Below, in pieces: positions 3,112 through 57,685 of a stretch of 64,000 nt of DNA. Positions within the stretch are counted from its first letter, which is position 1. The number at the start of each line of letters is the position of its first letter. The position numbers and the translations under genes were made by a program. Under the pieces are notes generated by a model. The model did no database searches and was not told the DNA's origin. It saw nothing but the letters and a program-made list of their open reading frames with translations. Source of the DNA: Bdellovibrio svalbardensis (GTDB lineage Bacteria > Bdellovibrionota > Bdellovibrionia > Bdellovibrionales > Bdellovibrionaceae); contig NZ_JANRMI010000004.1 in assembly GCF_029531655.1 (NCBI RefSeq), forward strand, positions 496,001 through 560,000, in the 5' to 3' direction.

Positions 3112-3194
3112 AGAAGACCTCCTCTTCACCTAGAGCCTAACCCCATTTCCCGCCAAATGCGAAGCTTGGAATTTGCTTTGAAAGGGCGCGTCGC

Positions 3195-3248
3195 TACTCC
3201 GACGGAGTCGGAGTGTAGAATAGCCTACTCCGACGGAGTCGGAGTGTA
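3195..3248. repeat. Two tandem copies of a 23-bp palindromic repeat (GACGGAGTC family)
   Basis: Copies at 3195-3217 and 3226-3248 are identical, with stem CTCCGAC, loop GGA and stem GTCGGAG, flanked by TA and TGTA. The pair ends 7 bp past the stop of the minus-strand gene at 3256. Further copies lie at 17157 and 34844. The positions suggest a REP-like element at 3' ends. Confidence 0.85.
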
Positions 3249-3255
3249 GAACAGC

Positions 3256-3534
3256 CTAAGGAGACTGCTCTAGCCGACCAATCTCGTTTTTAATATGACT
3301 GCGCATTTCCTCCACATCATCGTGGTACATCCACAAAAGCTCTTCACGCAGCTTGCGCAGACGCAAAATCTTCTCAGTGCTAAGGGGCCGAAGGCTTTCT
3401 GACAACTGCAGCAAATGAAGATCCACCTCCCGCTTGAAATCACCGTAATCTTGATCGTCTTCCTTATCTAAAAAGTTCAGGAACTCTTGAATATAGAAAT
3501 TCATAGGCACCTCGTTCTTATTATTTTGAGCCAT
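3256..3534 (-). CDS. Small hypothetical protein
   Basis: 92 residues and not recognised. It is acidic and helical (FLNFLDKEDDQDYGDFKREV, then LRPLSTEKILRLRKLREELLWMY), with no signal peptide or membrane helix. A very strong Shine-Dalgarno AAAGGAGG stands 7 bp before the ATG, which supports a real gene. It is divergent from the pseudouridine synthase. Two palindromic repeats lie directly behind its stop. Confidence 0.75.
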   Translation of the reverse strand: MAQNNKNEVPMNFYIQEFLNFLDKEDDQDYGDFKREVDLHLLQLSESLRPLSTEKILRLRKLREELLWMYHDDVEEMRSHIKNEIGRLEQSP

Positions 3535-12441: not shown

Positions 12442-12475
12442 AAAAATACCTCAATTATTCAAGAAGCCCCAATGA

Positions 12476-12605
12476 GGCTGAGCCAAACGGTTCAGCCGCA
12501 AGGCGGAGGTCCATCCTCACAGCGCAGGCGTGGCAGCGCCACGTCGGAGCGAGGAGATGGGCCGACAACGCAGTCGGATGGGCCGTTTCGCTCGGCCGAC
12601 GCTAG
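12476..12605 (-). repeat. Structured intergenic element, family 2, copy 1
   Basis: A 130-bp segment that aligns end to end with 45411-45538. Outer arms at 12476-12490 and 12583-12597 pair at 13 of 15 positions. Inner helices are GGTCCATC with GATGGGCC, GCGTGGC with GCCACGT, and CCGAC with GTCGG around loop AACGCA. Between the two copies the paired bases change together while loops and GCAAGGCGGAGG stay constant. The end CTAG overlaps the TAG stop of the minus-strand gene at 12602. Confidence 0.8.
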
Positions 12606-13042
12606 ACGCGGTTGTGGATTAGGGAACGAACTTCATCTTCAAAGACCACTTCGATTTTGTCGTTCGCAGAATCTTTAACGAAGCCCAAACCGAATTTTGG
12701 ATGTTGAAGTTTTGTGTTCTTTTCGAAGTTGCCCTTCATGCTGTATGTCGCTGTAGGAGCTTTTTCGTTAGACATTAACATTTCGTATTCATTGCGGTGG
12801 CTTGATTTACGTGAACTCATTGTTTGTTCGCGTTTTTTAGCCGCTGCGCCTGTCAAAGGTTTGCCAGTGCGAGTTTGTGCTTTAGGAAGTGAATACGTTT
12901 TTTGCGAACCACAGATTTCGCATTTGATTTTTGCAGACGTCGCGGACGTGTGCGCTAAAACCACGTGGTATCTGTCGGCATCACACTTTTTACAGAATGC
13001 AAAAAAGGATTTCGCGACAGGGGGCAAAGTATTCATCGTCAT
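12602..13042 (-). CDS. Zinc-ribbon protein with C-terminal Tudor/CarD-like segment
   Basis: 146 residues. The N-terminal zinc ribbon is CKKCDADRYHVVL followed by CEICGSQK (two CxxC pairs, about residues 17-45). A basic linker RTGKPLTGAAAKKREQ follows. The C-terminal KNTKLQHPKFGLGFVKD then IEVVFEDEVRSLIH resembles the small barrel at the C-terminus of PcrA/UvrD and the RNA-polymerase-interacting domain of CarD. It is encoded just upstream of a helicase that lacks such a tail, so it may act with that helicase at RNA polymerase; this is inference. The Shine-Dalgarno AGGAAGA precedes the ATG. Confidence 0.8.
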   Translation of the reverse strand: MTMNTLPPVAKSFFAFCKKCDADRYHVVLAHTSATSAKIKCEICGSQKTYSLPKAQTRTGKPLTGAAAKKREQTMSSRKSSHRNEYEMLMSNEKAPTATYSMKGNFEKNTKLQHPKFGLGFVKDSANDKIEVVFEDEVRSLIHNRV

Positions 13043-17152: not shown

Positions 17153-17156
17153 AGCC

Positions 17157-17179
17157 TACTCCGACGGAGTCGGAGTGTA
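17157..17179. repeat. 23-bp palindromic repeat (GACGGAGTC family)
   Basis: Identical to the two copies near 3.2 kb (stem CTCCGAC/GTCGGAG). It sits 5 bp behind the stop of the EVE gene and before the Dus gene. Confidence 0.85.
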
Positions 17180-17213
17180 AGCCAGCCCTCCGACGAAAAA
17201 AACAGGTGTCATA

Positions 17214-24684: not shown

Positions 24685-24837
24685 GATTTGTTAAGGAAGT
24701 GGAATTCTTAGCTCATGCTTCGATCGGCACGCCGTCCGGGCTCGATCACCGCCGAGCTAAAGCTCGGTTCGCGGCATCGTGCCGCCGGTGAAGGCCGCTC
24801 TACGCATGAACTAAGAATTCCACTTCCTTAACAAATC
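24685..24837 (+). repeat. Long-arm inverted element, family 1, copy A
   Basis: A perfect 27-bp inverted repeat (24685-24711 with 24811-24837) closes a 99-bp core. The core contains hairpins CCGAGC/GCTCGG and GGCA/TGCC and the conserved stretch GGTTCGCGGCATCGTGCCG. The core matches copies B (56891-57038) and C (57310-57454, reverse), while the arm sequence is unrelated to theirs. Confidence 0.85.
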
Positions 24838-24897
24838 TTGCTTCCGAGTTTTTTCTTGTTCGTTAAGTGGGGCGTTGTCTTTGCTTCGCAAAGATTC

Positions 24898-24928
24898 ACT
24901 TTCGGCGCCGGTGTTGCGTTGCTTCTTC
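24898..24928 (-). repeat. 31-bp intergenic repeat, copy 1
   Basis: Read on the minus strand it matches 43760-43790 with one difference in 31. It includes the palindrome CGGCGCCG. Flanks of the two copies are not clearly related. Confidence 0.75.
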
Positions 24929-34838: not shown

Positions 34839-34843
34839 AGCCT

Positions 34844-34892
34844 TACTCCGACAGAGTCGGAGTGTAGACCAGCCCGACAGAGTCGGAGTGTA
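34844..34892. repeat. Palindromic repeats (GACAGAGTC variant), one full and one partial
   Basis: A full 23-bp copy at 34844-34866 and a partial copy at 34875-34892. Both have A in place of G in the loop (GACAGAGTC). They end 7 bp after the dnaJ stop. Confidence 0.8.
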
Positions 34893-34898
34893 AGTCAG

Positions 34899-36011
34899 CT
34901 ACTTTTTACGGAATATTCCGCCCTCACCCTTCACATCCAGACCGCGAGCCTTCGCGATTTCACGCAAAAGCTTTTCCTCGTCCTTATGAAGTTTGTCTGG
35001 GAACTGCACATTCACTAAGAAGTAGATATCGCCGCGACGGCTGCCTTTCAAAGACGGCAAACCCTCACCCGCAAGTTTCACTTTGTCACCAGGCTGAGAG
35101 CCTTTTGGAATTTCCACTTTGGCTTTGCCAGTAACAGTTGGAACTTCGATTTCAGCGCCCAAAAGCATTTGCACATAAGGAACTGAAAGCTCCGCAAAGA
35201 GATCTTCATTGCGACGTTCAAAATTATTGTGCGGCTTCACGCGAATTTCCACATAGAGATCGCCCGGAGGTCCCCCCATGTAACCACCCTCGCCTTCAGT
35301 CGCCACACGCAAACGAGTGCCTGTATCGACTCCAGGAGGAATATTTAAGCGGATTTTTTTATGCTGAGCTTTACGGCCTTTGCCTTTGCACGACTTGCAC
35401 GGATGTTTAACAACAGTGCCTTTGCCATGACAGGTTGGGCAAGTTGAAGCCATCGCAAAGAAACCTTGTGAGCGAACCACCTGGCCCGAGCCATTACACA
35501 TTGGGCAAGTTTCAGGATGATGACCTTTTTCTGCGCCACTGCCTTTGCATTCACCGCAAGATTCATCGGTATCAAATTCAATTTCTTTTTCCATACCAGA
35601 GATCACGTCTTTCAACGAAACCTCTGTCACATAGCGAAGGTCAGAACCACGACGTGGTCCGTTTTGAGAACGACTTTGACGGGCACCACCGCCTCCGCCA
35701 CCAAAGAAGTCACCGAAGATATCACCAAAGTGAGAGAATATATCGTCCACATCTTGGAAGCCTTGATGACCGCCTCCGCGTCCACCGCTAAATGCCTGAT
35801 GACCGAAACGATCATACTGAGCACGCTTTTGTGGATCACTCAGGATCTCGTAAGCCCCTGCAGCCTCTTTGAATTTTTCTTCTGATTCTTTATCTCCCGG
35901 GTTCTTATCCGGATGAAATTGCATCGCCAGCTTGCGGTAAGCTTTTTTAATAACATCTGCTTCAGCGTCGCGGGCCACGCCTAAAATCTCGTAGTAATCT
36001 CTTTGTGCCAT
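34899..36011 (-). CDS. dnaJ: Chaperone protein DnaJ (Hsp40, type I)
   Basis: Co-chaperone that delivers clients to DnaK and stimulates its ATPase. The J domain has HPDKNPGD, followed by a Gly/Phe-rich region ([15 protein letters not shown]). Four CxxCxGxG zinc repeats are present ([32 protein letters not shown]), then the client-binding C-terminal domain. 370 residues. No Shine-Dalgarno stands before the ATG, and a sigma-32-like promoter ends only 10 bp upstream, so the message could be nearly leaderless. dnaJ is upstream of dnaK here, the reverse of the common order. Confidence 0.97.
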
Positions 36012-45391: not shown

Positions 45392-45410
45392 AAATTCACC
45401 ACGCAAAGCT

Positions 45411-45538
45411 GGCTTGGTCAAAAAGGTTCACATGCAAGGCGGAGGGTTTTATTCGTAACGGAAGCGTAGCAGCGCTACGCTGGAGAGAAGGATAAGACCC
45501 GACAACGCAGTCAGGTGGGCCTTTTTCACCAAGCCCTA
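45411..45538 (-). repeat. Structured intergenic element, family 2, copy 2
   Basis: Aligns end to end with 12476-12605. Arms 45411-45426 and 45520-45535 pair at 15 of 16 positions. Inner helices are GGGTTTTAT with ATAAGACCC, AGCGTAGC with GCTACGCT, and CGAC with GTC around AACGCA. The end CTAG overlaps the TAG stop of the minus-strand gene at 45536. Confidence 0.8.
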
Positions 45539-46330
45539 GTCTAAGAAGTCGGAAAGAGAGATCTTTCCGCGTATCATGACGATCAAACCAGATGTCATGC
45601 AAGTGAGAGCCACCCCGACACCAATCAGATTGCGGTGGCCTAAACTCAACATCCCCCAAAGAATCAGCAGAGCACTCAAACCGTAAGGTCCCCAGTACAT
45701 ATACTTCTGCCATTTAGGACGAGAGAGATCTTTTTCGGATTTAACATACGAATTCTGTGACAGACCCACCATCATCAAACCATTGATTTTGGCAATCATC
45801 TGATCACAAAGGACATCCCCACCCTGCGCAGTTTTGATCTCTTCGTACTTCATAATCGCGAAGCGCAAAGCATCGAGTTCATGGCAGCTGCGGATGAATT
45901 CGTCGTGAAGATCTTCATTTTCGAAGTTCTCGAGAAGATTCTTCCACTTACGCACCAAGCTGGGCTGAGCACGCAAAGTTGGATCCTGAGGCAGCCCCTC
46001 GAGGCGCTCAAAAATCACGTGGCAAGAATAACACTCCGAAGATTTACGGCCGTTCAAAGCACCACATTTCGGGCAAGATTTCATGTCGGCATGGGCCGTT
46101 TGCTCCTGAATCGCCTCTTGTTGCTGAGCGGCAAAAGCCTTCTCTGCGGGAGTTTGAATCAAAAAAGCCAGAATTTGCTGAGTTCCGAGAGCATGCTCTT
46201 CGGGAGAGTACTCAAAACCGAATCGACTGTCGCATGAGATGCACTGAAATACAGGCACTTCATTGAGAATTTCTTCACTCTCAACTTCGTACAACTTAGC
46301 GCATGATGGGCATCGAACTTTCAATTTCAC
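45536..46330 (-). CDS. Zinc-ribbon membrane protein of unknown function
   Basis: 264 residues from a GTG start. The N-terminal MJ0042-type zinc finger reads CPSCAKLYEV then CISCDSRFGFEYSP. A second ribbon CPKCGALNGRKSSECYSC lies near residue 90. The C-terminus has two close membrane helices (YGLSALLILWGMLS and IGVGVALTCMTSGLIVMI). The middle is helical. Two zinc ribbons before a membrane tail suggest a sensor or assembly role; no family is certain. It is convergent with the subtilisin gene and divergent from lnt. Confidence 0.82.
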   Translation of the reverse strand: MKLKVRCPSCAKLYEVESEEILNEVPVFQCISCDSRFGFEYSPEEHALGTQQILAFLIQTPAEKAFAAQQQEAIQEQTAHADMKSCPKCGALNGRKSSECYSCHVIFERLEGLPQDPTLRAQPSLVRKWKNLLENFENEDLHDEFIRSCHELDALRFAIMKYEEIKTAQGGDVLCDQMIAKINGLMMVGLSQNSYVKSEKDLSRPKWQKYMYWGPYGLSALLILWGMLSLGHRNLIGVGVALTCMTSGLIVMIRGKISLSDFLD

Positions 46331-56890: not shown

Positions 56891-57038
56891 ATTTGCGGCT
56901 TAGGCTGCTTTTCCGGTCATCGCTTCGTCGGGCACGCATCCATGCTCGATCGCCGCCGGGCTTTGCCCGGTTCGCGCCATCGTGGCGCCGGCTAAGGCCC
57001 GACTACGGATGCCCGGAAAATCATCCTAAGCCGCAAAT
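56891..57038 (+). repeat. Long-arm inverted element, family 1, copy B
   Basis: Arms 56891-56916 and 57013-57038 pair at 24 of 26 positions. The core (GCTCGATCGCCGCCGGGC, then GGTTCGCGCCATCGTGGCG) matches copies A and C; GGCATCGTGCC of A and C is GCCATCGTGGC here, so both sides of that small hairpin changed together. Confidence 0.85.
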
Positions 57039-57309
57039 TTCGGTGATGCTTGGGACTTCGCTCCGAATTTTTCTCTCTACTTCGCCAGCACGCGACTTTC
57101 ACTCTTCCAATCGCAAAAGGCCAAACTGCTTTTTCCAATCAAAATGTTAAATCATCCGCCTACCACGCCCTATTCCTAATGATTGAAGCTGTTGGCGTGT
57201 TCAATCGTTGAGCGCAGCTCCAGATAATTCACCAATCAAACATCCTGCGAGGAGCTTCGCATCGGTCATCAACGCGCCCTCTAAGTGCGAGGGGATGTGG
57301 ATTTGTCGA

Positions 57310-57454
57310 TTCAAGTTTTGCGTTGTTTGTAGAGTGTCCGTAGTCGGGCCTTAGCCGGCGGCACGATGCCGCGAACCGAGCGCAGCTCGGCGGCGACCGA
57401 GCCTGGAAGGCGTGCCCGACGAAGCGACACTCTACAAACAACGCAAAACTTGAA
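57310..57454 (-). repeat. Long-arm inverted element, family 1, copy C
   Basis: Perfect 28-bp arms at 57310-57337 and 57427-57454. The core lies in reverse orientation relative to A and B and contains CGAGC/GCTCG and GGCA/TGCC hairpins and TCGGGC/GCCCGA pairing. Confidence 0.85.
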
Positions 57455-57685
57455 CCGCGTGCGAAGCCGCCTCCCCACCCCGCCAAGAGGAAAGGTGTCT
57501 AAGAGCTTGGCAGTTTCCGAAAGATTTTGGGTTGAAGGAGTTCAGTTCCGGTGATGTTGGGAATTGTGTCGAAGTGATGGAGTCTTAAATTGATCGACGA
57601 GGTGAATTTTATCGCGGAAAAAAGAGGCAGTGGTAATCTGAGGGTGAGATTGAGTTTTCCCACCGCAAAGCCGATAGGAGAGATT

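Follow-up and report, generated by a model that had tools for sequence, protein, structure and literature searches.

The 64,000-nucleotide stretch of Bdellovibrio svalbardensis DNA analysed here (the window; contig NZ_JANRMI010000004.1, positions 496,001 to 560,000) contains two matching stretches, each of which lies against the stop codon of a gene on the opposite strand, a 146-aa gene (ORF 12602..13042) for copy 1 and a 264-aa gene (ORF 45536..46330) for copy 2. A sequence-only reading had proposed that the two stretches align over their full length, with identical loops and linkers and with helices that change on both sides, and we confirmed each of these points. The features of the two copies are as follows.

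12474..12600 (+), copy 1 of the element
12476..12497 (+), copy 1, outer helix, 5' arm
12498..12509 (+), copy 1, conserved internal-loop strand GCAAGGCGGAGG
12527..12545 (+), copy 1, apical hairpin GGCGTGGC-AGC-GCCACGTC
12563..12575 (+), copy 1, opposite internal-loop strand CGACAACGCAGTC
12576..12597 (+), copy 1, outer helix, 3' arm
12602..12604 (-), stop codon (TAG) of the antisense 146-aa gene that copy 1 abuts
45410..45536 (+), copy 2 of the element
45411..45434 (+), copy 2, outer helix, 5' arm
45434..45445 (+), copy 2, internal-loop strand GCAAGGCGGAGG
45463..45481 (+), copy 2, apical hairpin AGCGTAGC-AGC-GCTACGCT
45500..45512 (+), copy 2, internal-loop strand CGACAACGCAGTC
45512..45535 (+), copy 2, outer helix, 3' arm
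45536..45538 (-), stop codon (TAG) of the antisense 264-aa gene that copy 2 abuts

To test if the two copies share a secondary structure, we folded them with RNAalifold, which gave one long hairpin with internal loops, rather than several independent palindromes, with 12 of 41 pairs changed on both sides. The + strand folded better than shuffled sequences in both copies (z = -4.5 and -6.8; 0 of 200 shuffles each) and better than the minus strand (z = -1.6 and -4.8). A BLAST search with copy 1 found matches in 16 of 29 related genomes, and we aligned 34 copies, all but one from the genus, after dropping two with inserts or misaligned ends, near-duplicates, and two partial copies. The two internal-loop strands were near-invariant in this alignment. 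Of 39 consensus pairs, 28 showed two-sided change; 96.9% of cells were paired, 206 cells were changed on both sides, and the covariation score was 0.482 compared to 0.177 for shuffled alignments, with 0 of 500 shuffles as high. Sliding the partner by 1-3 columns dropped pairing to 35-45%, the score to 0.05-0.11, and the number of pairs with two-sided change to 10-14. The shuffles do not control for relatedness, while the slid versions do. Although single motifs reach 2-mismatch matches by chance in the window, an origin as unrelated palindromes is rejected by these counts, by BLAST E values down to 1e-30 between genomes, and by covariance model scores above 100 bits.

Because an A-C cell on one strand would be G-U on the other, we next used wobble pairs to ask which strand is kept foldable. 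G-U outnumbered A-C on the + strand by 129 to 11 cells, and by 31 to 7 when wobble-dominated pairs were left out. Together with the folding energies, these data indicate that the + strand of each copy is the one that folds. The conserved single-strand structure proposed by the sequence-only reading, as RNA or single-stranded DNA (ssDNA), is strongly supported, but its suggestion of small RNAs from the minus strand is not. RNA and ssDNA cannot be told apart from sequence. However, no promoter-like site was found at either copy, and the orientation of copies follows replication as well as genes (see below), which leans towards DNA. A family of trans-acting small RNAs made from the + strand would fit the covariation and the G-U pairs, but we consider it improbable given the lack of promoter-like sites at the two copies, the presence of tens of diverse copies per genome, and an upstream flank that is not conserved apart from being A/C-rich and G-poor. 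The 15 nt on the 5' side hold 9.7% G and 32% C, compared to 23.5% and 22.4% in a control of intergenic DNA.

To determine how widely the element is distributed, we built a covariance model, R1, from the aligned copies. In the window's genome R1 gave 37 matches, corresponding to 32 places after removal of 5 reverse-strand doubles, as the model also scores the reverse strand of strong copies weakly. Copy 1 scored 129 bits (E 2.9e-31) and copy 2 scored 131.7 bits (E 5.5e-32), with model boundaries at 12474-12599 and 45410-45536, although both sequences are themselves in the model. Copies were present in 21 of 24 genus genomes (individual genomes are referred to below by number, such as G018), with up to 81 matches in G018, where 2 reverse-strand rows were dropped, and in 75 of 368 phylum genomes (40 of 181 genera), with at most 9 candidates scored per genome. 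Pattern hits with the same core lie in Streptomyces, Nocardioides, Planctomycetes, Nitrospirae, Geobacter, Clostridia, and others, and those scored (80 of 120) include matches in Myxococcales, Planctomycetota, Peregrinibacteria, Geobacter, Nitrospirae, Chloroflexi, Streptomyces, Nocardioidaceae, Ruminococcus, and Lachnospiraceae. Several of the 80 gave no match, and hits near E 0.001-0.01 may be due to chance and should be interpreted with caution. Since these loci were picked for the core, the independent support is the extra pairing: in 14 actinobacterial copies, 21 of 34 pairs showed two-sided change, mostly in the flanking stems. Some Streptomyces copies also carry or adjoin an inserted palindrome with a run like GGGGGCACCTCCC. 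An extra small stem-loop is inserted in the 5' internal-loop strand in one copy in the window's genome (contig C1, position 654976) and in the copy at the site of copy 1 in G032. There was no match in 50,697 phage records and none for the exact core pattern in viral contigs, while one copy lies on a Bdellovibrio sp. HAGR004 plasmid (AP029178.1 32510-32613). No Rfam model scored above its threshold in the window, and 10 loci from other taxa gave only a tmRNA next to one element.

We next examined the position of copies relative to genes, using gene calls from a simple codon-usage finder of our own, which missed genes in the island described below. Across 22 copies in G006, 18 have their 3' neighbour gene on the opposite strand, and 17 of the 22 have its stop codon within -11 to +3 nt of the element's end. 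Over 55 entries from G006, the window's genome, and G013, 43 have an antisense 3' gene, and in 41 of these the stop is within -11 to +8 nt, while the distance on the 5' side is broad. In four genomes, 53 of 68 copies abut within 15 nt. Nocardioides-type copies abut as well; nine of 20 actinobacterial loci abut within 20 nt, and four Streptomyces loci have a TAG stop at exactly +25. An exception is the Dive96 bin, whose 37 examined copies do not abut gene ends and whose elements have a longer outer palindrome. Many flanks suggested CTAG as a target, but all three stop codons occur (TAG 22, TAA 14, TGA 7; background TAA 183, TAG 114, TGA 65). In a Myxococcales contig, the element begins 5 nt after the 3' end of the tmRNA gene, so the landmark is the gene end rather than a stop codon as such. 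TAG is nonetheless enriched, and a sequence preference is not excluded.

This placement raised the possibility that the element is a host-selected 3'-end structure, either a two-way terminator or an mRNA-end stabiliser, that is inherited and copied by recombination rather than mobile. Consistent with this reading, species without the element often carry ordinary terminator-like hairpins at the same site, orthologous copies diverge less than flanking DNA, and A-tract/T-tract pairs hardly vary in Bdellovibrio. However, this reading does not explain the replication-strand rule beyond gene bias, the choice of the strand antisense to the abutting gene as the one kept foldable, or the same core in distant phyla, and we consider it unlikely.

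To test if orientation is linked to replication, we compared the strand of each copy with GC skew. In complete genomes, the element's strand switches where GC skew switches: skew is positive in all 10 sampled G006 regions before 1.6 Mb and negative in all 10 from 2.0 Mb on, and likewise in G002, G030, and G012. Consistent copies numbered 45/45 in G013, 26/27 in G012, 29/29 in G006, and 70/77 in G018 (170 of 178 in total), although genes in the sampled regions are only 57% co-oriented with replication (298 co-oriented to 224 not). The folded strand thus lies on the leading-strand template. The flip points used for these counts were fitted to the element strands; GC skew supports them in G006, G002, G030, G012, and most of G013, but is noisy for G018. 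Of the 53 copies that abut an antisense gene end, 51 follow the rule, as do 12 of the 15 that do not, which are too few to separate the replication rule from the gene rule, and orthologous copies in G002, G006, and G030 are not independent. Some of the exceptions are accounted for by two inverted pairs of elements, in G002 and G030, each facing outward and enclosing other GC-rich repeat-like DNA. The rule refers to Bdellovibrio, as actinobacterial genomes had only 1-14 matches on many contigs.

We then compared the two window sites across the genus to determine whether copies come and go. The genes around copy 1 are neighbours in 24 of 24 genomes, but an element is present in only four of them: three with similar outer arms and G018 with a different one, plus about 1 kb of other DNA that includes a 180-aa ORF between the uvrD-like gene and the element. 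Three of the four filled sites look orthologous. The other 20 genomes have about 30-160 nt there, with ordinary terminator-like hairpins in several or other inserts. At the site of copy 2, 14 of 24 loci were resolved and only the window's own genome showed the element, while the two convergent stops lie 3-6 nt apart in two relatives. Both window sites lack the copy in most relatives, so the element is gained and lost alone. Among 12 orthologous pairs, the element in 8 differs at 1-4 positions while the 3' flank differs by 1.8-10.7%; in the other 4 it differs at 7-28 positions, in blocks that change both arms of a helix, or through exchange of most of the inside, while the outer arms stay similar. 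G013 has about nine same-strand neighbours 125-138 nt apart, mostly of two different core types with similar outer arms, and G012 has a recent tandem copy. This looks like repeated arrival at, or rewriting of, the same sites, with strong upkeep in between.

Dispersed palindromic repeats next to gene 3' ends are known from the REP and REPIN elements, which are found in tandem or paired copies and are thought to move as ssDNA (PMC3733652; PMC3116915), and proximity of REPs to stop codons has been reported (PMC12306157; PMC3733652). We therefore asked whether the element is a REP/REPIN in the strict sense, mobilised by a Y1 (RAYT) transposase. Y1 genes occur in 21 of 24 genus genomes, and 8 of 48 Y1 genes have an element 40-287 nt downstream on the same strand. 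This adjacency, which an earlier count had placed at 9 of 52 loci, reduces to about 3 independent loci when flanks are compared. G013, G017, and G008, with 46, 19, and 9 model matches, have no Y1 match, nor do 9 of 17 element-bearing genomes in all (E<=0.01). RAYT-like Y1 genes at three loci are surrounded by a different repeat, GGGTATCGGTCA, in both orientations. The element is also 105-127 nt long, rather than a 20-40 bp palindrome with a GTAG or CGTC tag at one end, and has no such tag in the 34-copy alignment; it differs further from REPs in its conserved internal-loop core shared across phyla, its fixed antisense orientation, and its replication-strand bias. Mobilisation by a Y1 transposase is thus not supported and remains doubtful.

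A second comparison is with attC sites of chromosomal integrons, which are hairpins with unpaired parts that sit just after a stop codon, with the foldable bottom strand antisense to the preceding gene and on the leading-strand template (PMC11023631). The element shares these properties, and 15 copies lie in a 55-kb island of the window's genome. However, no integron integrase passed the TIGR02249 cut-off in 24 of 24 genus genomes, no conserved core of the GTT/AAC type that attC sites would be expected to carry was seen at the stem base, and the copies are dispersed rather than in one array. Elements are also gained without a gene at the two sites examined, as judged from gene order and without strain-level reads. 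A folded recombination site of an integron-like cassette system therefore appears improbable, and the published mechanism is taken by analogy only, not as membership.

Collectively, these findings suggest that the element is a non-autonomous, REP-like dispersed repeat of about 105-127 nt with a single-stranded folded stage, an interpretation we hold to be about as likely as not. We infer that the folded single strand, probably as ssDNA, is the form recognised by an unidentified protein when copies spread or are rewritten, and that copies whose folded strand lies on the lagging-strand template are lost or never inserted, because that template is often single-stranded. Once in place, the hairpin would be kept as a 3'-end structure of the neighbouring gene, and in Bdellovibrio the A4-5/T4-5 segment of the stem would suit a two-way terminator. 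However, G+C-rich phyla lack the A/T segment, and a scan for intrinsic terminators (a short G+C-rich hairpin followed by a T run) found none at copy 1 and only one weak minus-strand match inside copy 2. No mobiliser was found, no target duplication was seen, and no element was caught moving, and strong conservation in place with orthologous retention could equally mean an ordinary host-selected structure. A bolder reading, which we offer only tentatively, is that this is a broadly distributed bacterial single-strand DNA element, recognised through its conserved asymmetric internal loop by a widespread but unidentified enzyme or host factor, placed precisely at the 3' ends of coding genes and tmRNA in step with replication, and rewritten by exchange of matched helix arms.

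Repeats of this kind are usually described genome by genome, whereas here a 20-odd-nt paired core recurs in distant phyla with the same placement at gene ends and, in Bdellovibrio, with a sharp replication-strand rule. The family, which genome annotation now misses, offers a test bed for how folded single strands at replication forks shape repeat insertion and loss, and a structure with which to isolate the binding protein. We found no description of it in the open-licence literature, to which our searches were limited. BRE, a beta-proteobacterial repeat element of unknown function described in Bordetella (PMC3110155), is a candidate relative; it is multi-copy, about 75-91 bp, tandem at some loci, touches gene ends, and is present in several genera. 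A set of 250 unnamed mobile/repeat candidates, multi-copy structured intergenic motifs in bacterial genomes that are predicted to be selfish, has also been listed (PMC11109978).

The island of the window's genome (within contig C2, 715001-788000) begins with a phage-type tyrosine recombinase and a small HTH protein. Its 15 divergent copies of the element are mostly on one strand, and many lie right after + strand ORFs, with a 1341-aa Rhs-like protein and small membrane proteins between them (all of these proteins named by eye). The window itself contains other repeats, including five copies of a 35-nt palindromic repeat containing GGAGTGTA(G) at 3191-3256, 17153-17187, and 34840-34900. Two further regions, 56891-57457 and 24685-24928, share long inverted repeats with each other and within themselves, another mobile-looking structure.
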